NCBI GenBank assembly: GCA_009996515.1
Contig: JAACZV010000020.1
Span: 1-64,000, forward strand
Reading direction: 5' to 3'
From: Comamonadaceae bacterium
Lineage (GTDB): Bacteria; Pseudomonadota; Gammaproteobacteria; Burkholderiales; Burkholderiaceae_C
DNA length: 64,000 nucleotides
Below are positions 1 to 61,429 of the stretch, one piece after another (the stretch's first letter is position 1; every line of letters begins with the position of its first letter). The notes under the pieces were generated by a model that saw nothing but the letters and a program-made list of their open reading frames with translations, was not told the origin of the DNA and searched no databases. A program made the position numbers and the translations under genes.

Positions 1-1873
1 GCAGCAGGCGGCGCATGATCTTGCCGGAGCGGGTCTTGGGCAGGTTGTCGCCGAAGCGGATGTCCTTGGGCTTGGCGATGGGGCCGATCTCCTTGGCCAC
101 ATGGTCGCGCAACTGCTTGGCGATGGCCTTGGCCTCCTCACCGCTGGGGCGGGGGCGCTTGAGCACGACGAAGGCGCAGATGGCCTCGCCGGTGGTGTCG
201 TCGGGGCGGCCCACCACGGCGGCTTCCGCCACCAGCTCGGTGCAGCCCACCAGTGCCGACTCGATCTCCATCGTGCCCATGCGGTGGCCCGACACGTTCA
301 GCACGTCGTCGATGCGGCCCGTGATCGTGAAGTAGCCCGTCTCGGCGTCGCGGATGGCGCCGTCGCCGGCCAGGTAGTAGCCCTTGAGCTCGGCCGGGTA
401 GTAGCTCTTCTTGAAGCGCTCGGGATCGCCGTAGATGGTGCGGATCATGCTCGGCCACGGCTTCTTGACGACCAGGATGCCGCCCTGGCCGTTGGGCACG
501 TCGTTGCCCATCTCGTCGACGATGGCGGCCGTGATGCCCGGGAAGGGCCGCGTGCAGGAGCCCGGCACCAGCGTCGTCACACCGGGCAGCGGCGTGATCA
601 TGTGGCCGCCCGTCTCGGTCTGCCAGAAGGTGTCGACGATGGGGCAGCGGCCGCCGCCCACATGCTGGTGGTACCACTCCCAGGCCGCCGGGTTGATGGG
701 CTCGCCCACCGAGCCCAGCAGGCGCAAGGACGACAGGTCGTAGTTCTTCGGATGCACGGCGGCATTGGTCTCGGCCGCCTTGATCAGCGAACGTATGGCC
801 GTGGGCGCCGTGTAGAAGATGGTGACCTTGTGCTTCTGGATCATCTGCCAGAAGCGGCCGGCGTCCGGATAGGTGGGCACGCCCTCGAAGACAATCTCGG
901 TGCCGCCCAGCGCCAGCGGGCCATAGGTGATGTAGCTGTGGCCGGTGACCCAGCCGATGTCGGCCGTGCACCAGAAGATGTCGTCGTCCTTCAGGTCGAA
1001 GGTCCACTTGGTGGTCAGCGCCGCATGCAGCAGATAGCCGCCGCTGCTGTGCTGCACACCCTTGGGCTTGCCGGTGGAACCCGAGGTGTAGAGCAGGAAC
1101 AGCGGATGCTCGGCCTCCACCCACTCGGGCGGGCAGTGGCTGGTCTCGGCGTCCATCAGGTCGTGCAGCCACAGGTCGCGGCCCTCGGTCCAGCCGATCT
1201 TGCCGCCGGTGCGCTGGTAGACGATGACGTCGCGCAGCGTCGGGCAGGAGCCGCCCTCCAGCGCCTCGTCGACGATGGCCTTCAGCGGCAAGGCCTTGCC
1301 GCCGCGCATCTGCTCGTCGGCGCAGATCAGTGCCACGGCGCCGGCGTCCTGCACGCGGTCGCGCAGCGACTGTGCCGAGAAGCCGCCGAACACGACGGAA
1401 TGCGTCGCGCCGATGCGGGCGCAGGCCTGCATGGCCACGACGCCCTCGACGGACATGGGCATGTAGATGACGACGCGGTCGCCCTTCTGGATGCCGCGCG
1501 CCTTCAGCGCGTTGGCGAGCTGGCTGGTCCGGGCCAGCAGTTCGGCATAGCTGACGTGGGTGACGGTGCCATCGTCGGCCTCGAAGATCAGCGCGGTCTT
1601 GCCGCCCTTGCCCGCCTCCACATGGCGGTCCAGGCAGTTGTAGGAAACGTTGAGCTTGCCGTCCTCGAACCACTTGAAGAAGGGCGCGTCGCTGTCGTTG
1701 AGCGTCTTCGTGAACGGCGTCTGCCAGCTCAGCAGCTCGCGGGCCAGGCGGGCCCAGTAGCCGGCGTAGTCTGCCTCGGCCTCGGCCACCAGCGCCGCAT
1801 AGCCGGCCTCGCCCTTCACATGGGCGTTGGCGAGCCACTCGGGGCTGGGCGGATAGGTGTTGGGCGTGCTCAT
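1..1873 (-). CDS. acs: Acetyl-CoA synthetase, C-terminus cut by window edge
   Basis: AMP-forming acetate:CoA ligase; it activates acetate to acetyl-AMP and then acetyl-CoA in the cytoplasm. About 624 residues are present; only the last few tens of residues lie beyond base 1. The phosphate-binding loop [11 protein letters not shown] is near residues 262-272, and the C-terminal motif [10 protein letters not shown] sits near 610-620; its lysine is the catalytic and acetylation-regulated residue of the family. The WQTETG substrate motif and the [10 protein letters not shown] hinge are also present. The ATG at 1873 is preceded by a good AGGAGA ribosome site, which fixes the start. It stands alone, divergent from the membrane protein at 1994. 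Identification is firm. Confidence 0.94.
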
Positions 1874-2674: not shown

Positions 2675-3337
2675 TCACCCCAGAGGGTTCGCGCCGCGCC
2701 TGCGCGCCTGCGCGGCAGACAGCGCCGCCAGGGCCAGGCCCAGCAGCAGCAGGCTGGCCGGCTCCGGCACGGTGCCGGCCGCATCGAACAGGAAGTTGGG
2801 CCCGAAATAGGCGGGCAGCACGCCGCCTGTATTGCTGGTGGGATTCGCGAGCGCGCCGCCCACGGCGAACCGGGTCTCCATGAAGGAGATGTCCGCGGGC
2901 GTGGAGAACCCCGTCGCGTCCCCTGGGTAGATCAGCCCGTCGAGCAAATTGTTCCAGACCGCCCCGATGGTGTAGGTCTGGCCGGCGGTCAGCGTCAGCG
3001 CGGTGATGCCCGAGTAGCGGAACTGCGCGGTCAGCGGATCGGCCGTACCCGCGCCGACGATGGTGGATGCCAGCAGCGTGCCGTCGCTGCTCCACAGGCC
3101 CACTTCATGGCGCTCGGCCAGGCCGTCCTGGTCGGCATCAAAGACGCCTAGCGCCATGATCGTGATGTCGCTGTTGACCGTGAAAGACCAGCCCAGCGTG
3201 AAAGGTCCGTTGCCCAAAGTCAGGCCGGTGGTGTTGGTGATCGAGATGGCAGGCGCTGCCACGGCCTGCAACGGAAGACAGATCGCCGCCACGGACACCG
3301 CGGCACCTGCCAGCCAATTCCTCATTGATCGCGTCAT
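2675..3337 (-). CDS. PEP-CTERM sorting-domain protein
   Basis: Predicted secreted protein of 220 residues handled by an exosortase. A signal peptide occupies about residues 1-31 (MTRSMRNWL start, then a hydrophobic run ending AVAAPA). The C-terminus has the full tripartite PEP-CTERM signal (TIGR02595 type): VPEPAS, a hydrophobic helix of about 15 residues, then ARRR. The middle is serine/threonine/glycine-rich, resembles beta-sandwich PEP-CTERM proteins, and has no recognised catalytic motif. The ATG at 3337 has a strong AGGAGGG ribosome site, so the longer upstream frame is not used. A sigma-54 promoter and a distal dyad lie upstream. The processing exosortase must be encoded elsewhere. Confidence 0.82.
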   Translation of the reverse strand: MTRSMRNWLAGAAVSVAAICLPLQAVAAPAISITNTTGLTLGNGPFTLGWSFTVNSDITIMALGVFDADQDGLAERHEVGLWSSDGTLLASTIVGAGTADPLTAQFRYSGITALTLTAGQTYTIGAVWNNLLDGLIYPGDATGFSTPADISFMETRFAVGGALANPTSNTGGVLPAYFGPNFLFDAAGTVPEPASLLLLGLALAALSAAQARRRGANPLG

Positions 3338-3375
3338 GACGAGCCCTCCTGGGAACATTCCCGGGGGCGTCCGAA

Positions 3376-3390
3376 GCAAAGTTCGGTCCA
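3376..3390 (-). promoter_or_regulatory. Sigma-54 promoter of the PEP-CTERM gene at 2675-3337
   Basis: Minus strand reads TGGACCGAACTTTGC, with GG (-24) and GC (-12) in the exact sigma-54 spacing and a perfect TTGC -12 box. Transcription would start near 3364, leaving a leader of about 27 bases before the ATG at 3337. Compare the matching element at 51034-51048. Confidence 0.72.
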
Positions 3391-3442
3391 GAACAACAAG
3401 CCGTTGATGCAAAAGGAGTTTTTCCGCAAGCCAGGACGGCCA

Positions 3443-3459
3443 TGTCAGAAAAACCGACA
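3443..3459 (-). promoter_or_regulatory. Candidate PrsR upstream activator site
   Basis: Minus strand reads TGTCGGTTTTTCTGACA, an imperfect dyad TGTC-N9-GACA centred about 62 bp upstream of the -24 element. The same TGTCG-N7-TGACA pattern occurs upstream of the other sigma-54 PEP-CTERM promoter at 51122-51138. Binding by PrsR is inferred from position and sharing; it has not been shown. Confidence 0.55.
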
Positions 3460-50144: not shown

Positions 50145-50975
50145 TTACTTGCGGCGGCGGGCGACGAAACCAACGCCAGCCAGAGCCAGGCCGACCAGGG
50201 CCAGGGAGGCCGGTTCCGGCACGGTCGAGAACGTCTGGTTCGCGTCAGCCTGGAACACCACTTGACCGGCGCCGACGGCATTGCCATCAACCGAGCTCGG
50301 CGCAGAGAAGTTGGTCACCGAGGAACCCAGTTGCAGCGTCGACGTGACGTTCGTGCTGACCAGTGCCGGGTTGATGTAGGTTGCGTTGGTGTAGGTCACG
50401 ACACCCGTCAGGGCGGCCTGACCGCCCGTCAGCGTGTCGAACAGCGTGGTCGAGCCAGAGTTGAAGGTACCCGACAGGATCTTGGTACCGTCGCTGAAGC
50501 CCGTCCAGGTCGAACCGGTAGCCTTGGCATTGGCAGCCGTGTCGTAATAGATGTCGAACGTACCGCCCGTGACCTTGAACGTGCACTGGGTCGCGCTGAC
50601 GCAGCTGACGACCGTCTCCGTGAACGTGGCAACGACGGTGTACTCATACGAGCCGTTCATGCCGGGGATGTTGAGCTGCTTGCCCAGCGAGTTGCCGATG
50701 CCATCGGCAGTATTGTCGAACTGCAGCAGCGACATCGGGTTGCCGTCGGTCTTGGTCACGGCCGTCGCCCAGCCGGCGTAGTTCAGCGTGAAGTTCGAGC
50801 CCGGAGCGCCCGTGAAACCGGAAGTCCAGGCAGCGGAGCCGGAGGCCCAGTCGAAACCACCGAACGGCGTGTTGACACCATCCAGGTTCGTGATGCTCGG
50901 GTCGGCAAATGCGGCACCGCTGAAGACGGTCGCGCCAGCCATCGAGAGCGCGGCAGCAATCTTCTTGAAGTTCAT
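50145..50975 (-). CDS. PEP-CTERM protein, PepA-like, under sigma-54 control
   Basis: Exported protein of 276 residues. A signal peptide ends GAAFAD. The body is rich in Thr/Ser/Asn/Gly with beta-strand character. Two cysteines lie 7 residues apart (VSCVSATQCT) and may form a disulfide. The C-terminus is VPEPAS, a hydrophobic helix and RRRK, a model PEP-CTERM signal. The ATG at 50975 follows AGGAG. It is the last gene of the PrsK/PrsR/PrsT cluster and has its own sigma-54 promoter. From memory, a PEP-CTERM protein called PepA in floc-forming Burkholderiales and Zoogloea has similar context and control; orthology is inferred. Confidence 0.88.
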   Translation of the reverse strand: MNFKKIAAALSMAGATVFSGAAFADPSITNLDGVNTPFGGFDWASGSAAWTSGFTGAPGSNFTLNYAGWATAVTKTDGNPMSLLQFDNTADGIGNSLGKQLNIPGMNGSYEYTVVATFTETVVSCVSATQCTFKVTGGTFDIYYDTAANAKATGSTWTGFSDGTKILSGTFNSGSTTLFDTLTGGQAALTGVVTYTNATYINPALVSTNVTSTLQLGSSVTNFSAPSSVDGNAVGAGQVVFQADANQTFSTVPEPASLALVGLALAGVGFVARRRK

Positions 50976-51033
50976 GTCAACTCTCCTAAACGTTACGAGC
51001 GCGCGACCTTCGCACGATCTTGCCAACCAATAA

Positions 51034-51048
51034 GCAGCCTCCGTGCCA
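51034..51048 (-). promoter_or_regulatory. Sigma-54 promoter of the PEP-CTERM gene at 50145-50975
   Basis: Minus strand reads TGGCACGGAGGCTGC: a perfect TGGCACG -24 box and CTGC -12 box (consensus TTGC) with exact GG/GC spacing. Start of transcription would be near 51022, giving a leader of about 47 bases. PrsR, a sigma-54 activator, is encoded 5 kb upstream. Confidence 0.82.
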
Positions 51049-51121
51049 GATTCTGCAAATACCTGTCGGCAAACACTTTTTTCCAGATTTACCGCCATTG
51101 AGCAGGGCGCAGAACAGGAAG

Positions 51122-51138
51122 TGTCAAGTTTCTCGACA
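51122..51138 (-). promoter_or_regulatory. Candidate PrsR upstream activator site
   Basis: Minus strand reads TGTCGAGAAACTTGACA, a TGTC-N9-GACA dyad centred about 83 bp upstream of the -24 element and starting 7 bases after the prsT stop codon. It shares TGTCG-N7-TGACA with the site at 3443-3459. Confidence 0.58.
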
Positions 51139-51144
51139 AGCAGT

Positions 51145-53931
51145 TCAGAGGGCGTCCATCATCTTCCTGACCTCGGCCTGCTGGGCGAAGCCATCACCCA
51201 GCAGAGCCAGCCGTTGCAGATGCTCGCGAGCCTCAGCCTTTTGTCCGGCCTTGACGTAGTACTGTGCGAGGTGGAACCGATGCATGGCGTGATCGGGCGC
51301 CCGATCGACGGCCTTCTTCTGAATGTCGATCGCTTTGTCAAAACGACCGGCGGTCGCCAGGACCTGTGCCAGCGTGTCCATGTAGTCCGGGTTGTCCGGC
51401 GCCAGCTTGGCGGCCCGCTCCGCATACTCCAAGGCCTTGGGATCCTTGCTGCGATTCAACAGCCAGGCGATGTTGTTGGCCGCATTGGCGTTTTCGGGCT
51501 GCAGTTTCAGCACCGCCTGGTAGCGCTCCAGCGCGAGGTCGTAGTTCAGCAGCAGCAAGGTCGCGTCGGCGGAATAGATCAAGAACTTGAGGTCCTTGGG
51601 ATGTGCGGCCAGCCAGTCGGATTCGAACTGCTTGGCCTCGGCCGACTTGCCGGCACCGATCAGCACACGATGCAGCTTGATCGCCACATCCACTTGGGAC
51701 AGTAGCGCCAGCGCAGCGCGATAGTTCTGTGCTGCGCCAGCCCAGTCTCGCTGCACGGCCGCGATGTCGCCGATGACGGAGTACACCAGCGGATCGTTGG
51801 GATACAAGGCTTTCATCGTGCCGGCGAGGCGACGCGCCTCGGCAAAGTTGCCGACGGCCAGTTCGTTGGCGATCAGCGCCCGCTGGGCCGGCTGGTAGCC
51901 CGGCTTCAGCTTCAATGCACGCTCCATCGATGCCTTGGCCGCCGCCTTGTCGCCGCGCGCCGCATAGGTCTGCGCCAGCAGCAGCAGCGGCTCGGGGGCA
52001 TTGGGCAGCATCGCAATCAACTTTTTATAGGAGTTGATGGCCTGGTTGTAGTCGCCCGACATCGCCTGGGCGCCAGCCAGATGCCGCAGCACATTGGGAT
52101 CATGCGGCATCGCGGTGGCCGCTTCGGTGGCGACGGCAAGCGCCTCCTTGACCTGCTGGCGGCGCAACTGCAGTTCGATCAAGGCCAGGCGTGGTCGTGG
52201 CTCGTCGGGCATCTGCTTGATCAACTTCTCCAGTGCTGCAACGAGCTCTTCCTTGTTGGCACCGGTCTGATCGCGCAGCCCGATCAATGCCATGTTGGCC
52301 GCCAGCCCCTTGGGATTGGCGGCCAAGACCTGCTGCATGCGGGCTATGGCGGCGTCGGGCTTCTTGGCCTCCATGTCCAATGCGGCAAGGCTGGCGGCGG
52401 CCGGATAGTAGGCAGGGTCGCGCTTCAGCGCGGCCTCGAAGGCCTGGATCGCTTTGTCCTTGTTGCCGCGCGCGAGTTCGATGCGTCCGCGCAGATTGCT
52501 CGGTCCGGCGCTGTCCGGCATCTTCCGGTCCAGCGTTTCGACGGCCTTCAGCGCCTTGCCCCAGTCCGCCAGCCGCATGAAGGTCGACACCAATGCCAGG
52601 TCCGCCACCGGACTGGGGTCCGAAGCGGACAGCGCGTTCAGGGCTGCCACGCCCTGGTCCACCCGGCCTTTTCCGATGTCCACGAGCGCCAGCGCCGCGC
52701 GGCTGGGCACGTCGTTCGGATTGAGCTTGGCGATCCTGGCGAAGGCCCCCTCGGCGCGCTGCGCATCACCGGACTGCAGGTAGGCCTCGGCGGCGACGCT
52801 CAAGGCATCGACGCTGCGACCTTCAGCCAGCAGCGGCTGCAGCACACTCAGGGCCTTGCCGGGGTCGCCGGCGCGCAACTGTGTCTGCGCCAGCAGCACA
52901 CGCGCCTTCTCGAAGTTCGGCGCCACGAGAAGGGTCTTGCTCAGATAGTCCTCGGCCTCGAGCAGCGTGCCACGCCGGAACGCGACGACGCCCGCAAGAT
53001 GCAGCACCCGCACGTCCTCCGGCGCGTTCTTCAGCAAAGCCTGGATGCCGTCGCGCGCGGCGTCCAGGTCATTGCGCTCCAGCGCAAGCAACACCGTCAG
53101 CAGCTGCACCTGCCCCGCCGCGCCACGTACACCGCGCAACGCATCGATCTGGGCCTTGGCTCCTTCAAGGTCCTTCTTGGCCAGCAGCAAATGGAAGATG
53201 CCCACGTGGGCCAGCACGTGCTTCTTGTCCAGCGCGATGGCCTTGCGATAGGCCTCCATCGCCTGGTCAGCCTTGCCCTGCACACCCAGCAGGTCGCCCT
53301 TGGTCTGCCAGCCATCGGGGCTCTGAGGCAATTTGCCCAACATCTCCTCGACGGCACCCAGGCCCGCCTCAGGCCCCGAGGCCGAGGCCAGCATACGAAC
53401 GCGGATCAACTGCGCTCGCTGCTCTCGCGGATCGGCCGCCACCGCCGCGTTGGCCATCTCCAGAGCCTTCGCCGCGTTGCCGGTGGCACTGTAGGCAACG
53501 GCCAGCGAAGCCTGCAGGTCGGCCTGCGCGGCGCTCGACGAGGGCTTCACCTTGGCGAACTCGGAGATCACCTTGGCAAACTGCGCCTGGCCCAGCATCG
53601 CCTGTGCAATCAGCGGCTCGAGCCTGTCGCCGTTGAAGCCCAGCTCCTTGGCCTTGTTGAACTCGGTCAGGGCCCCACGCGCATCGCCCCCCTGCAACAA
53701 GGCTTCGCCCAACAAGGCCCGCGCCTCGGCCAGCGATGGATTGGCCTGCAGCGCGTTCTTCAGCTGAATCACCGCGGCGGCATCGTTCTTCTTGGCCAGG
53801 TCGGCCTTCGCGTCCGCCAGGTACTGTTCGGCCGACTTGCCAAAGCAGCCAGCCAACAGCAAACCCGACAGCGCCAACCCCGTCGCATAACGACGCTTTG
53901 AGCCAACTCCAGATGACGAGGCTTTGTTCAT
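51145..53931 (-). CDS. prsT: PEP-CTERM system TPR-repeat lipoprotein PrsT
   Basis: Large lipoprotein of 928 residues. The signal peptide ends in LAGC (cysteine near 29), followed by KSAEQYLADAKADLAKKND, the typical start of the family (TIGR02917). The rest is a superhelix of some twenty TPR-type helical repeats. The protein is probably held in the outer or inner membrane and is thought to assist export or surface assembly of PEP-CTERM proteins or exopolysaccharide. The ATG at 53931 lacks a strong ribosome site; a TTG five codons earlier is possible. It lies 63 bases after the acyltransferase gene, on the same strand. Confidence 0.92.
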   Translation of the reverse strand: MNKASSSGVGSKRRYATGLALSGLLLAGCFGKSAEQYLADAKADLAKKNDAAAVIQLKNALQANPSLAEARALLGEALLQGGDARGALTEFNKAKELGFNGDRLEPLIAQAMLGQAQFAKVISEFAKVKPSSSAAQADLQASLAVAYSATGNAAKALEMANAAVAADPREQRAQLIRVRMLASASGPEAGLGAVEEMLGKLPQSPDGWQTKGDLLGVQGKADQAMEAYRKAIALDKKHVLAHVGIFHLLLAKKDLEGAKAQIDALRGVRGAAGQVQLLTVLLALERNDLDAARDGIQALLKNAPEDVRVLHLAGVVAFRRGTLLEAEDYLSKTLLVAPNFEKARVLLAQTQLRAGDPGKALSVLQPLLAEGRSVDALSVAAEAYLQSGDAQRAEGAFARIAKLNPNDVPSRAALALVDIGKGRVDQGVAALNALSASDPSPVADLALVSTFMRLADWGKALKAVETLDRKMPDSAGPSNLRGRIELARGNKDKAIQAFEAALKRDPAYYPAAASLAALDMEAKKPDAAIARMQQVLAANPKGLAANMALIGLRDQTGANKEELVAALEKLIKQMPDEPRPRLALIELQLRRQQVKEALAVATEAATAMPHDPNVLRHLAGAQAMSGDYNQAINSYKKLIAMLPNAPEPLLLLAQTYAARGDKAAAKASMERALKLKPGYQPAQRALIANELAVGNFAEARRLAGTMKALYPNDPLVYSVIGDIAAVQRDWAGAAQNYRAALALLSQVDVAIKLHRVLIGAGKSAEAKQFESDWLAAHPKDLKFLIYSADATLLLLNYDLALERYQAVLKLQPENANAANNIAWLLNRSKDPKALEYAERAAKLAPDNPDYMDTLAQVLATAGRFDKAIDIQKKAVDRAPDHAMHRFHLAQYYVKAGQKAEAREHLQRLALLGDGFAQQAEVRKMMDAL

Positions 53932-53994
53932 GAGATCAGCAATCAAGAGGATTTGCAGCAGGGCAAGATGCTGCGGGAAGTGAGCCCAGGGCGG

Positions 53995-54780
53995 TCAGCG
54001 CAAAGTGGGCCGGAGCCTTTCCAGCGCCTCCGGATGCGCCTGGAATGAAAGATTCACCAGTCGGTCAATCACCGCGTACAGCGGCTGGATGAGGGGGCGC
54101 AGATTGCTCACGACCTTGCTGGAACTGAGCACCGACGGCACGCGAATGCCGCGATGATCGATCTCGCCACCAATCGGATGGATGTCGAAGCCGAGGCGCA
54201 GGAAATGGCTGGCCAGACGAGGCTCGGTCAATACGAAGACGTTCTCGATGTCGAGCCGCCGCGCTGCCGCGGCAGCGCCGAGATACAAGCTCATGGGAAT
54301 GAACGGAAAGCGCGGCTGGCCACCTCTGGCTTCGAAGTCGCGCTCACCCACGGAGACGGGCTTGTCAGCCTCACCCTGGCGTTGGCGGAATTCGCTCATG
54401 ACCGCCAGACGGGAGACTTCCGCCACGTCATGCCTGGGCAAACGAGCAGGATCCAGTTGATCGCGACGAATCACGTCGCGGCAACTGATCTCGAACGGCA
54501 GCGGGAACGAAGGCTGCTCGGGTCGGGCCAGCACCAGACGCGAGCACCCCACCAGGTCACCCGTATCGCGCTTTCGCAGGAGGCAGTGAACCGAATGCCG
54601 GTCATAGTCGTCCATCTCGAGGCCGTCGCTGCGAACCGCCTCCCACCCGAGCTCACGACAGTAAACGTCGTGCCGGATGCGGTACACCATCTCAACACTG
54701 GGAGCATCCAGGGCCAGCGAGAACTCAAAAAGCTCTTCGAATCGATGGCCAAGGTTTCCGCTTGAAATCGATGGGTTCAC
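53995..54780 (-). CDS. PEP-CTERM/exosortase-associated acyltransferase
   Basis: GNAT-like protein of 261 residues related to acyl-homoserine-lactone synthases (TIGR03694 type). Blocks include YRIRHDVYCRELGWE near 33-47, GCSRLVLARPE near 78-88, EVSRLAVMSEFR near 121-132 and IPMSLYLGAAAAARR near 160-175. In exosortase genomes this family occurs next to PrsT and XrtA genes; its product is unknown, and an acyl transfer to a protein, lipid or small molecule is possible. It begins with GTG preceded by a strong GAGGTGAT site. Confidence 0.88.
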   Translation of the reverse strand: MNPSISSGNLGHRFEELFEFSLALDAPSVEMVYRIRHDVYCRELGWEAVRSDGLEMDDYDRHSVHCLLRKRDTGDLVGCSRLVLARPEQPSFPLPFEISCRDVIRRDQLDPARLPRHDVAEVSRLAVMSEFRQRQGEADKPVSVGERDFEARGGQPRFPFIPMSLYLGAAAAARRLDIENVFVLTEPRLASHFLRLGFDIHPIGGEIDHRGIRVPSVLSSSKVVSNLRPLIQPLYAVIDRLVNLSFQAHPEALERLRPTLR

Positions 54781-55851: not shown

Positions 55852-57209
<1,358 letters not shown>

Positions 57210-57213
<4 letters not shown>

Positions 57214-59324
57214 GGGGTGTCGAGCGCGGCCAACGGCGCGTCGGCCTGTGCATGGAACAAGGGCAGCAGCAGCGTCACGGTGGTGCCTCGGTTCAATTCG
57301 CTCTGCACGCTGATCTTGCCTCCCAGTTCATGCACGTATTGGTAGCTCTCGTGGGCGCCTATGCCCATGCCGCTGGCCTTGGTGGTCTGGAACGGCTTGA
57401 AGAGACGATTCTGGATGAAATCCTCGCTCATCCCGCAGCCGCTGTCCTCCACTCGAACACGGGCCTGGCTGCCCTCGGCGTCCAGTTTCAGGCGCACGTG
57501 GCCACTGGCGGGTGTTGCATCGAAAGCGTTCTGCACGACGTGGCCCAGCACACGCTCCACCCGCTCGGCATGCCCTCGCGTGCTGACGCCGGCCTGCAGT
57601 TCCAGCTCCAGCACCCTGCCCTTGCTGGACGCTGCGGCCGCGAGCCGCTTGGCGATCTCCTCCAGGTCAACGCCGCTGGTCACGCCGTGGGGCTTGTCGC
57701 CCTCGCGCAGCTGCAACATCAGCTGGCGCATCTTCTCGAGCGAGTTCTCGACGGTGTCCAGCATGTCCTGCTGGAATTCGGGGTTGTCGCGCAAGCGCTT
57801 GGCGTTCTTCATCATCAGCGACAGCTGCGTGACGATGTTCTTCAGGTCATGCACGACAAAAGCCGACATGCGGTTGAAGGCATCGAACTTGCGTGCCTCC
57901 AGCAAGGCCTCCGTCGCCTGAACCTGGTCCAGGTAGCCCGAGGCCTGGCTGGCTGCCGTGCGCAACAGGTCGCGCACCTCCCAGTTCAGCTCGACGACGG
58001 CGCGCGAGCGGCCCAGCACGACGAAGCCGATCAGCTCCTCCCGCACCAGCAGGGGCACCAGCAGCCAGCAGCGCGGCTCGTCGATCAACCAGGCGGGAAG
58101 TTCGAGCCCGGGATAGGCATCACGCCTGCCACGCCACTCGTCCAGATCGATGATCCAGGCCCGCTCCCGCCAGAATCGGGCCAGCGTCCCGTCCCGGGGC
58201 TCGCTGCCGGCCTGCGCTGGCAGGTTCCAGCGCGCGACCTGCTGAAAGTCGCCGCCCGCAACACGCTGCATCCAGAGCATGCCGCTCGGGCTTTCGACCA
58301 GGTTGGCCAGTGCGCGCACCACCGTCTCGGCGGTGTGTTGCGGCTCGGCGCTGCCGGACAGCAGTTGCGTGAAGCGCAGCCACTCCTCGCGGTAGTCGTA
58401 GCGATAGCTGAAAAAATTCTTGCTGATGTAGACGCGCAGCCGCGAACGCATGGAGCCGGACGCGACCAGCAGGGCCAGCGCCACCAGCGCAACGAAGACC
58501 AGGGCCACGGACAGGGCCCGCGCCCAGTGGCCGCCCGTGTAACGCACGTAGTAGCCGACACCGGCCACCATCAGCAGATAGCCGCCGACCAACAGCAGCG
58601 TCGCCGAATGGAAAACGGCCGCGCGCGACACATGCAGCTTGCCCAGCCAGTCGGCATGCCGGCGCGAAGCGACATAGAGCAGCGGAACCGCCGCTGCATG
58701 CACCAGCGAGCGCACGCTGACCGCATCGGCATCGAAGCGCTGGAACAGGGCCGCCTGCGAGCTGATGAAGAGGTCGAACACGAAGATGGCCCCCAGGCCG
58801 AGGCAAACCGGCTTGGCATTCCAGCGCGCGTCGCCCACGGCATTGCGCAGCGTCTGCTCGACGAGCAGCAGGCCCAGCACCGCGATGCCCAGTGCCACGA
58901 ACGCCTGCGGGCGGGCCAGCTCCTCAGCCGGCACCCCTTCTGCCGACAGGATCAGTCCCAACTGCGCCAGCACCGCCAGGCCCGCCAGCGGTCGCATCCA
59001 GCCCAGCCCTCCACCATGCCGAGGTGGCGGCAGCAACAGCAGCAGGAAGGCAAACCACAGCGCGAACCGCAACAGATCCAGCGCGGGCACGATCCACGTG
59101 GGCAGGTGGTCGGACCAGTGCCGCAGACCATCTGTCAGCGCCACGCCGGCCCAGACCGAGCTGGCCACGAGCGCCAGCAGGAAGACAACAGCCAAGGCCG
59201 TGACCGGCAGGCCGCCGCGCAGCAGGCGCCGCGCAAAGTGCAGCGCGAACACGCCATAGGCCAGCGCGCAGGTCAGGTCACCCAGGTTGCTCAAGGACAG
59301 CAGCGGCGTGAGCACCTCGGTCAT
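57210..59324 (-). CDS. prsK: PEP-CTERM system histidine kinase PrsK
   Basis: Membrane kinase of about 704 residues (TIGR02916). Eight or so N-terminal helices occupy the first 290 residues, followed by a GAF-like sensor region near 330-460. The phospho-acceptor histidine lies in FVVHDLKNIVTQLSLM near 490, then the ATPase N-box GHVVQNAFDATP and G-boxes DSGCGMSEDF and KASGMGIG. The signal is unknown; the many helices suggest a membrane or cell-envelope signal. The start is uncertain: 59324, 59363 or a GTG at 59378. Paired with prsR. Confidence 0.93.
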
Positions 59325-59425
59325 GGCGCCTGGGACGGAGTCCAAGTCGGCAGCTGCAAACATGCCGGATTCAAGCACGCCTCCCGAATCCAGGGCGGTG
59401 AAGCCCGCAGCCGAGCCCTCGGATC

Positions 59426-60808
59426 TCAGCGCGCGCCCTTGCCCGTCAGCACGACGGCAACCGTCTCCAGCATGATCAGCAGATCAAGGAAGAGCGAATG
59501 GTTCTTGACGTAGTACAGGTCGTACTGCAGCTTCTCGACCGAATCCTCGATCGTCGAGCCGTACTCGTAGCGCACCTGGGCCCAGCCCGTGACGCCGGGC
59601 TTCACGCTGTGGCGGACCGCGTAGTAGGGAATCTTGCTGATCAGCTCGTCGACGAAGTACTGCCGCTCCGGGCGCGGACCGACCATGCTCATCTCACCCA
59701 CCAGCACGTTGAACAGCTGGGGCAGCTCGTCGATGCGGACCTTGCGAATGAAGCGGCCGACACGGGTCACGCGATCATCGTTCTTGGTCGCCCAGCGCGG
59801 CTTGCCATCCTTCTCGGCATCGGTGCGCATGCTGCGGAACTTGATCACGTTGAAAGGCACGCCGTTCAAGCCCACGCGTTCCTGGCGATAGAGCACCGGG
59901 CCGCGCGATTCGAACCGGATGGCCAATGCCGTGACCAGCATAATGGGCCAGGTGACGGCCAGGATCAGTGACGCGAAGATGATGTCGCAAACCCGCTTGA
60001 TCGCCGCACGCAGCATGCCCTGGCTGAAACCGTCGCCAAACACCAGCCAGCCCGCGTTGACATGCTTGATGTTGATCTGGGCCAGCGTCTTCTCGAAGTG
60101 GGTGGCGATGTCGACGACGCGCACGCCTGACAGCTTGCAATCGAGCAACTGGCGCAACGGCATGCTGCCGCCGCGGCGCTCGCTCAGCGCGACGACGATC
60201 TCGTCCACGTTGTGCTTGAGGGCGGCTTCCGTGAGGTTGGCGCCGTCGTTGATGATCTCGTCGCGCGGCACCTCCGGCTGGTCCTCGTTGGGGCCGGCAT
60301 AGAAGCCGACGATCTGCGCGTGCGGGTCGGACGCGCGCAGCGTGTTGCCCACCGTGCGCGCGGCAACACCGGTGCCGAAAATGAGGATGCGGCTGCGCAA
60401 ACGGGCCTGGGTGCCGGAGTGCGCGGCATAGACGCGATGCACCATCACCGCGGCCACCGCGATCATGGCCACCAGGGTCAGCAGTTCACGATGGCTGGTG
60501 CTGGACGGCACCAGGCTGAAGATCACATAAGCCAGCGGCAGGCCGAACAGCAGGCCGAACAACGCACGCGCGCAGGACTCCGTGATGGAGCGGTTGTGCA
60601 CATGCTGATAGAAGCCCGTGGCCGAGTTGATCACGAACATGCAACCCGCCAGAGACAGGCCGTGGGACGCCGCGAAGGGCAGCACCGTCTGCGCCGATTC
60701 GCCTTGGCTGAGGACCACGGCAATCACGGCAAACACGATCAGGCCGAGATCGAAGAAGACCTGGAGCAAGGTCTGCCTGTGCAGATAATGGTTGAATATT
60801 CGAATCAT
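59426..60808 (-). CDS. TIGR03013-family sugar transferase (EpsB-like)
   Basis: Initiating glycosyltransferase of 460 residues that transfers a sugar phosphate to undecaprenyl phosphate for exopolysaccharide synthesis. Four or five N-terminal helices precede a nucleotide-binding region near 135-240 (ILIFGTGVAART). The bacterial sugar transferase domain spans residues 270-460 with KRVCDIIFASLILAVTWP, RQERVGLNG, KFRSMRTDAE and the catalytic-region VRIDELPQLFNVL. This subgroup is the marker of XrtA exosortase clusters. The ATG at 60808 has GGGGGA in good position; the one at 60814 sits on it. Further EPS genes are not in the window. Confidence 0.93.
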   Translation of the reverse strand: MIRIFNHYLHRQTLLQVFFDLGLIVFAVIAVVLSQGESAQTVLPFAASHGLSLAGCMFVINSATGFYQHVHNRSITESCARALFGLLFGLPLAYVIFSLVPSSTSHRELLTLVAMIAVAAVMVHRVYAAHSGTQARLRSRILIFGTGVAARTVGNTLRASDPHAQIVGFYAGPNEDQPEVPRDEIINDGANLTEAALKHNVDEIVVALSERRGGSMPLRQLLDCKLSGVRVVDIATHFEKTLAQINIKHVNAGWLVFGDGFSQGMLRAAIKRVCDIIFASLILAVTWPIMLVTALAIRFESRGPVLYRQERVGLNGVPFNVIKFRSMRTDAEKDGKPRWATKNDDRVTRVGRFIRKVRIDELPQLFNVLVGEMSMVGPRPERQYFVDELISKIPYYAVRHSVKPGVTGWAQVRYEYGSTIEDSVEKLQYDLYYVKNHSLFLDLLIMLETVAVVLTGKGAR

Positions 60809-61429
60809 TGACATCCCCCGATCATTACTGCCGGCACTCTCCGCAGCTGCAATCCAATCAACGGAATCCGATTCAGTATCGATATTCCACTTGATATCAC
60901 GCGCAGGCCACCTGTCGCCTCACCGACCCGGCGGCGGCCGACGGTCACGGACCACCTGGGAGATCGCCCGGCCGGTCTATGGAAGTCCCTGACTTGACGT
61001 CGCGACGGACATGCCCGACCAACCCTTGATCGCGCCGGCATCATGCCTCTGGCTCCCCGGGCTTGAAAGCCCCCCGTTTAGAGGGTGCTTGACCCTTGAA
61101 TCCGCGTCGTGACGCAGCCTGCCGGCCCGGTCATTTTCACAACGGGCGGCAGTAGAACCGAAAGCCGGCGGCCGCACCATGCCGGCCCGGCAGTCAGCGC
61201 AGCAAAACGTGCGAAACGCACAGGCATTCCCGTGGGATTCGATAAAACGGGGCTGCCGAAAGATTGCTCACGCTTCATCGCACCCACGAGTTTGAACGGC
61301 GCATCGATATTGAAGAATCCCGCACCGCCTGGGTAGTATTCACGAATCACCCATGCCCGACGCGGCAGCCGGACTCAGGGCTCGGGCCCGCGGGCTGAGC
61401 CGGCCTACCAGCGTTGCCGATCAGGAATG
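60809..61429. other. Long intergenic region upstream of the exopolysaccharide gene
   Basis: About 620 bases with no supported gene. Part of it (60841-60900 and 61201-61350) is less GC-rich than the surroundings. Frames of 60-90 codons occur on both strands but lack ribosome sites and similarity. A possible but weak sigma-54-like element occurs near 61272-61286 on the minus strand (TGGGTGCGATGAAGC). It probably holds the promoter of the sugar transferase gene and the end of the livJ transcript. Confidence 0.45.

Follow-up and report, generated by a model that had tools for sequence, protein, structure and literature searches.

A predicted PrsR-controlled sigma-54 promoter upstream of pepA in a Comamonadaceae bacterium, and the helical spacing of related PEP-CTERM promoters

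The DNA upstream of the PEP-CTERM gene pepA in a 64,000-nt stretch of a Comamonadaceae bacterium genome (assembly GCA_009996515.1, contig JAACZV010000020.1, positions 1 to 64,000; hereafter the window) is most probably a PrsR-controlled sigma-54 promoter of the PEP-CTERM/exosortase regulon, a reading to which we assign a probability of about 0.9. It draws on features of the DNA itself: the parts of the promoter, their recurrence, orientation and phasing, the IHF consensus of related spacers and the link between such sites and PrsR. In the proposed mechanism, the PrsK-PrsR two-component switch would answer some stimulus and act through sigma-54: phosphorylated PrsR (NtrC-type, with a Fis HTH) would bind a 17-bp imperfect dyad, TGTCGR-N5-YTKACA, make contact, through a DNA loop, with sigma-54 RNA polymerase at TGGC-N8-TGC and spend ATP to open the promoter, so that pepA is expressed. 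Relative to the polymerase, only one helix face would be open to the box, and spacers would accordingly differ by whole turns (about 42, 53, 63, 74 and 85 bp). IHF, at a fixed place, would bend the loop in most related promoters of the 63-bp spacer class and in some of the other classes; pepA, with its 73-bp spacer, seems to do without IHF.

The features of the pepA locus and of a sister promoter in the window are collected in Table 1. The genes for PrsT, the acyltransferase, PrsR, PrsK and the glycosyltransferase all lie upstream of pepA, and the profile matches of prsR, prsK and prsT in the window exceed their cut-offs. For the second PEP-CTERM gene the start was placed by eye at the ATG at 3337, which follows AGGAGGG; in the list of open frames it begins with a TTG at 3412.

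Table 1. Coordinates of the pepA promoter, its gene cluster and the sister promoter in the window
Feature	Coordinates	Strand	Description
Candidate PrsR box (motif 1) of pepA	51122..51138	-	TGTCGAGAAACTTGACA, imperfect dyad; prsT stop codon 6 bp before box
Spacer of 73 bp, PrsR box to -24 element	51049..51121	-	No IHF-consensus site at the offsets of related promoters (4 mismatches)
Sigma-54 element of pepA (-24/-12)	51033..51048	-	TGGCACGGAGGCTGCT
pepA, PEP-CTERM protein	50145..50975	-	NF033554, 119 bits, cut-off 80; TIGR02595 also over cut-off
prsT, XrtA/PEP-CTERM TPR protein	51145..53946	-	TIGR02917
PEP-CTERM/exosortase-associated acyltransferase	53995..54780	-	TIGR03694
prsR, proposed binder of the box	55852..57213	-	TIGR02915, 724 bits; receiver, sigma-54 activation domain (AAA+) with GAFTGA, Fis-type HTH
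prsK histidine kinase	57210..59378	-	TIGR02916
XrtA/PEP-CTERM glycosyltransferase	59426..60814	-	TIGR03013
Second candidate PrsR box	3443..3459	-	TGTCGGTTTTTCTGACA, 52 bp before its -24 element
IHF-consensus-like site	3397..3409	-	CATCAACGGCTTG, 1 mismatch; starts 19 bp before -24 T, an offset recurring in relatives
Sigma-54-like element	3375..3390	-	TGGACCGAACTTTGCT, 2 mismatches, weaker than that of pepA
PEP-CTERM gene of second site	2675..3337 (about)	-	TIGR02595, 20.7 bits, cut-off 16

The sigma-54 consensus is TGGCACGNNNNTTGCW. The pepA element differs from it by one mismatch, as expected from the original prediction of a near-perfect sigma-54 promoter, and is the sole site in the window with at most one. 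With up to two mismatches allowed, 27 sigma-54-like sites were found in the window against 41.6 expected by chance; since such sites are not commoner than chance, a sigma-54 match alone proves little. The locus also has the other attributes of an enhancer-dependent sigma-54 promoter, namely rpoN in the genome and an activator with GAFTGA. The dyad had been placed 83 bp upstream of the -24 box, a figure that holds when measured between the middle of the box and the GG of -24; from the end of the box to the -24 T there are 73 bp. The sequence TGTCG-N7-TGACA is indeed common to the two PEP-CTERM promoters, on the minus strand at both, and a full scan of the window returned exactly these two occurrences where 0.13 would be expected (about 0.1 had been estimated); two were reached in 1 of 100 shuffles. 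The distances differ by the predicted 21 bp or so (73 bp at pepA versus 52 bp at the sister gene), and this two-turn difference exemplifies a general phasing, near 10.5 bp, described below. The original interpretation of box and sigma-54 element as one architecture is supported.

The shared box, real and recurrent as it is, is not new. Published sources are used here in excerpt; in the part of Haft et al. (2006; PMC1569441) so used, a 17-nt motif 1, a spacer (mean 62.8, SD 10.6, range 32-92; 13 species) and a sigma-54 motif are described upstream of proteobacterial PEP-CTERM genes, and PrsR is predicted to be the binder of motif 1. The pepA promoter is a correct rediscovery, a further case of the type of switch predicted in 2006. 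Its box is 17 nt long; the 73-bp spacer lies within 32-92 nt and is followed by a -24(GG)/-12(GC) element; the pepA ATG stands 57 nt from the sigma-54 element, the reported range being 23-221 nt upstream of a PEP-CTERM gene; and PrsR, PrsK and PrsT are all encoded in the window. The pepA box differs from that account in its 3' end, TTGACA instead of TTTACA (one of six letters).

Among 142 dereplicated sites, the consensus of the box was TGTCGR-N5-YTKACA. The search pattern fixed or constrained ten of its positions, but neither R at position 6 (98%) nor Y at position 12 (97%). Its outer TGT and ACA mirror each other, as do R and Y, and symmetry is incomplete in the bases between them: position 5 was G in 93% of the sites, and position 14, where the pattern allowed both letters, was T in 79% and G in 21%. 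Of the two endings, the TGACA of pepA, on which the original box was built, is therefore in the minority, and the TTTACA form given by Haft et al. is the more frequent.

The genome-wide scan proposed with the original prediction bore it out. TGTCG-N7-TGACA occurs five times in the 4.58-Mb source genome (two occurrences of the same pattern read backward as a control), and four of the five boxes, accompanied by sigma-54 elements, closely precede PEP-CTERM genes. The fifth, C1:266828, is inside long open frames, on a contig with none of the genome's listed PEP-CTERM matches. Allowing a TTACA ending added a sixth site, C25:29114, likewise at a PEP-CTERM gene. With one mismatch allowed in the box, the genome-wide search found 293 matches versus 156 for the backward control and was too noisy without the sigma-54 element. 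Of the 24 PEP-CTERM genes in the genome, 22 were examined (at two loci the fetched DNA fell short of the gene start), and a box with at most one mismatch together with a sigma-54 element was found at 7, with gaps of 73, 52, 62, 72, 62, 54 and 63 bp; the remaining 15 of the 22 had no such combination. Five of these 15 carry a PEPGSYAMLLAGLG-like tail, perhaps marking a class under another regulator or exosortase. One rpoN is encoded in the genome; ihfA scored over its cut-off and an ihfB candidate just under (119.1 versus 119.95 bits).

Related genomes were searched with a composite pattern, TGTCR-N7-TKACA, a gap of 40-70 and TGGC-N8-TGC, without use of gene information. Twenty genomes of the genus yielded 76 composite sites, and the backward-read pattern none. 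All 76 were examined and 73 precede a PEP-CTERM gene, 70 by a stricter regular expression and 3 by eye (L100, L101 and L191); L178 is at a contig end, and the two sites without such a gene, L082 and L170, both have an off-phase gap of 66. With the box turned round, the same genomes gave 5 sites as against 76, so the box has direction.

In the order, 90 of 300 genomes had a composite match (227 matches, 3 of them in the source genome, G000; the analysis covers the 147 listed outside G000). Among the matches listed, 66 of 147 sites lacked a PEP-CTERM gene by the regular expression. Counting as PrsR-positive the genomes with TIGR02915 over the curated cut-off, and as negative those with partial matches below it (e.g. 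G163 and G127), a composite site was present in 61 of 71 PrsR-positive versus 29 of 229 other genomes, leaving 10 of the 71 without one. The link was sharper for two or more sites (48/71 versus 5/229; Fisher 4e-32). The five exceptions, G040, G069, G119, G135 and G172, gave no TIGR02915 match at E 1e-120, probably because of assembly gaps and possibly because another activator is at work.

Distances from box to promoter fall into groups near 42, 53, 63, 74 and 85 bp. In the genus, all gaps lie within 41-45, 50-55 or 61-65 except for the two non-PEP sites at 66, and the intervals 46-49 and 56-60 are empty; a search for gaps of 66-96, in which 12 of 15 rows were kept, placed PEP-CTERM sites at 73, 74, 74, 78, 78, 80, 85, 85, 85, 86, 86 and 96. 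Rayleigh statistics over all gaps did not separate a period of 10.5 from periods of 9-12 because one cluster dominates, and counts of sites outside that cluster were used instead. Relative to a phase reference of 63 bp, which was picked after the genus data had been inspected, 41 of 45 off-main sites departed from the 10.5-bp phase by no more than a quarter turn (chance would give half), those out of phase having gaps of 45, 78, 78 and 80. Related sequences are not independent, and after dereplication of similar spacers at 55% identity, which answers kinship only partly, 38 of 41 were in phase. The order set alone, the fairer test given the choice of reference, had 11 of 11 off-main PEP-CTERM sites in phase among the matches listed. 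Order sites without an assigned PEP-CTERM gene also leaned to this phase (21/27, P = 0.006, among the matches listed), perhaps because real targets were missed by the regular expression. Such phasing fits a looped activator that has to reach the polymerase from one side.

A further element was seen inside the spacers. In the main cluster, YAANNNNTTGATW starts mostly 31-32 bp, or WATCAANNNNTTR 19-20 bp, before the -24 T; the two are the two orientations of the IHF consensus, mirrored about one axis. This consensus is quoted for E. coli as WATCARXXXXTTR, WATCARNNNNTTR (PMC7962754). With a match defined as at most one mismatch at offsets of 31-33 (reverse) or 19-21 (forward), 77 of 121 sites of the main class (58-66) matched against a mean of 1.7 in 60 shuffles, 34 of them at every set position, as did 10 of 26 in the 50-55 class (0.03 in shuffles). 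At these fixed offsets no match was found among the 7 sites of the 41-45 class or the 12 with gaps of 73 and above. In the off-main classes, 20 of 45 sites had a match somewhere, 17 of the 20 at the same offsets or one turn away, the shifted offsets (reverse 21-22, forward 30-31) having been noticed and counted in the same data. Four of the seven box promoters of the source genome had a match, the one at 3443 included. The pepA spacer holds no IHF consensus, its best score away from the conserved offsets being 2 mismatches.

We consider it likely that the PEP-CTERM promoters of the order obey one spacing rule, by which PrsR box, IHF bend and sigma-54 promoter would occupy set helix faces, whole turns of about 10.5 bp could be inserted or removed on either flank of the IHF site, and the consensus of that site could stand on either strand provided that its bend axis kept a distance of about 19.5 bp, or that distance plus or minus one turn, upstream of the -24 T. 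If this rule is true, IHF would be a regular co-regulator of the exosortase regulon and pepA would belong to an IHF-free minority. IHF-assisted sigma-54 promoters include nifH and Pu. As in these, activator box, IHF site and promoter stand in line at 3443 and at many related PEP-CTERM promoters, whereas pepA has no recognisable IHF site; we do not file pepA among IHF-assisted sigma-54 promoters, a class to which its relatives and the 3443 site would, on their sequences, belong. The pepA spacer is also shorter than the 100-140 bp given as usual in the part of PMC7962754 consulted. Section 7 of Haft et al. (PMC1569441) mentions neither helical phasing nor an IHF site, and the spacer SD of 10.6 given there could arise from neighbouring classes separated by one turn. 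In excerpts of the freely accessible literature on IHF with PEP-CTERM, or on exosortase with sigma-54 activators, no description of IHF at PEP-CTERM promoters was found; as far as this literature extends, the helical phasing and the IHF site go beyond the published account. Table 2 of PMC7962754 lists GSU1943, a PEP exosortase substrate, as raised in ihf mutants of Geobacter. That is the opposite of simple IHF activation, in a distant organism, where IHF may act on PEP-CTERM genes in the opposite sense.

The dyad at 51122-51138 could be read otherwise, as a terminator that ends prsT transcription; its likeness to the other box would then be due to chance. A terminator scan does pick it out (seven pairs, a loop of 3 and a T-containing tail, with 0.4 terminator-like sites expected in shuffles of the region), only 6 bp from the prsT stop codon. 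Just 3 of the pairs are GC, however, the T tract is broken, and TTTACA, the commoner form, pairs worse on inspection; nor does a terminator explain 76 genus sites phased to sigma-54 elements, 73 of them before PEP-CTERM genes. We give this reading very little chance. The dyad arms at 3443 could, by eye, pair nearly as well as those of pepA, and the pepA dyad could do both jobs, as weak terminator hairpin and as PrsR box. That the box serves some other NtrC-type activator while PrsK-PrsR acts elsewhere also seems highly improbable. Genomes hold many sigma-54 activators, the five exceptional genomes have at least two sites with no PrsR match at E 1e-120, and DVU0110 and DVUA0057 of Desulfovibrio are predicted to share one motif (PMC4641369, in excerpt). 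Against this stand the strong link of the sites with PrsR over 300 genomes, the encoding of PrsR and pepA in one cluster and the finding of PrsR by profile in Haft et al. (PMC1569441); as to the exceptions, each of the five belongs to a genus in which other genomes have PrsR, and the five are 87-99% complete. DVUA0057 of D. vulgaris, moreover, bound PEP-CTERM targets in vitro, namely its five predicted ones in DAP-chip (PMC3333781, in excerpt). It resembles PrsR as a response regulator predicted by Haft et al. to control PEP-CTERM genes (PMC3333781, PMC4641369), although it comes from a distant organism.

It is also rather unlikely that the fixed YAANNNNTTGATW element, instead of binding IHF, serves a second regulator or is an intrinsic bend. 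The element is missing at pepA and at two of the other six box promoters of the genome, and is flanked by A/T-rich columns that could bend DNA alone. Yet it fits the quoted E. coli consensus (PMC7962754), at every set position in the 34 main-class sites mentioned above; its position, with the activator box on one side and the sigma-54 promoter on the other, is that of IHF sites; it is found in either orientation, mirrored about one axis (reverse mostly 31-32, forward 19-20); and in some sites of other spacer classes it has moved by one turn.

With PrsR control of the box as the preferred reading, the 2006 prediction from 13 species that PrsR controls PEP-CTERM genes gains support from 300 genomes of one order. 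The composite pattern provides a searchable signature that finds PEP-CTERM genes from DNA alone, and with the phasing and the IHF site added, a loose account of two motifs becomes a testable geometry. PEP-CTERM proteins are involved in floc formation (PMC9850573, in excerpt), so knowing their switch is of practical use. The same source reports for pepA of Aquincola tertiaricarbonis RN12 RpoN1 dependence by RT-PCR, a mapped start, TGGCAC at -24 and CTGCTT at -12, with a predicted enhancer upstream. There as here pepA adjoins prsT and has a -24/-12 promoter, but there pepA is described as upstream of prsT, whereas here it follows prsT.

Ten loci of pepA homologues were scanned (L050-L059, that of the window being L056), with the scan of L055 ending short of the gene start. 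A box with a sigma-54 element was found at L051, L056 and L057; the box was absent at L050 (the best-scoring homologue), L052, L053, L054 and L059. A prsT-like match was nearby only at L056, L057 and L058, L051 thus having a box without prsT. No prsT match was near L050, L052, L053 and L054 (in G002, G007, G005 and G013), whose sequences suggest different control. These four share a similar other leader, ACAGACG followed by CTGTACTG or CTTTACT, and three of them also contain GCATGGTGC. At L058 the box is 98 bp before its sigma-54 element. Two PrsR boxes (1199-1215 and 1306-1322) precede the one PEP-CTERM gene there, an arrangement comparable to the repeated motif 1 reported for Rhodospirillum rubrum.
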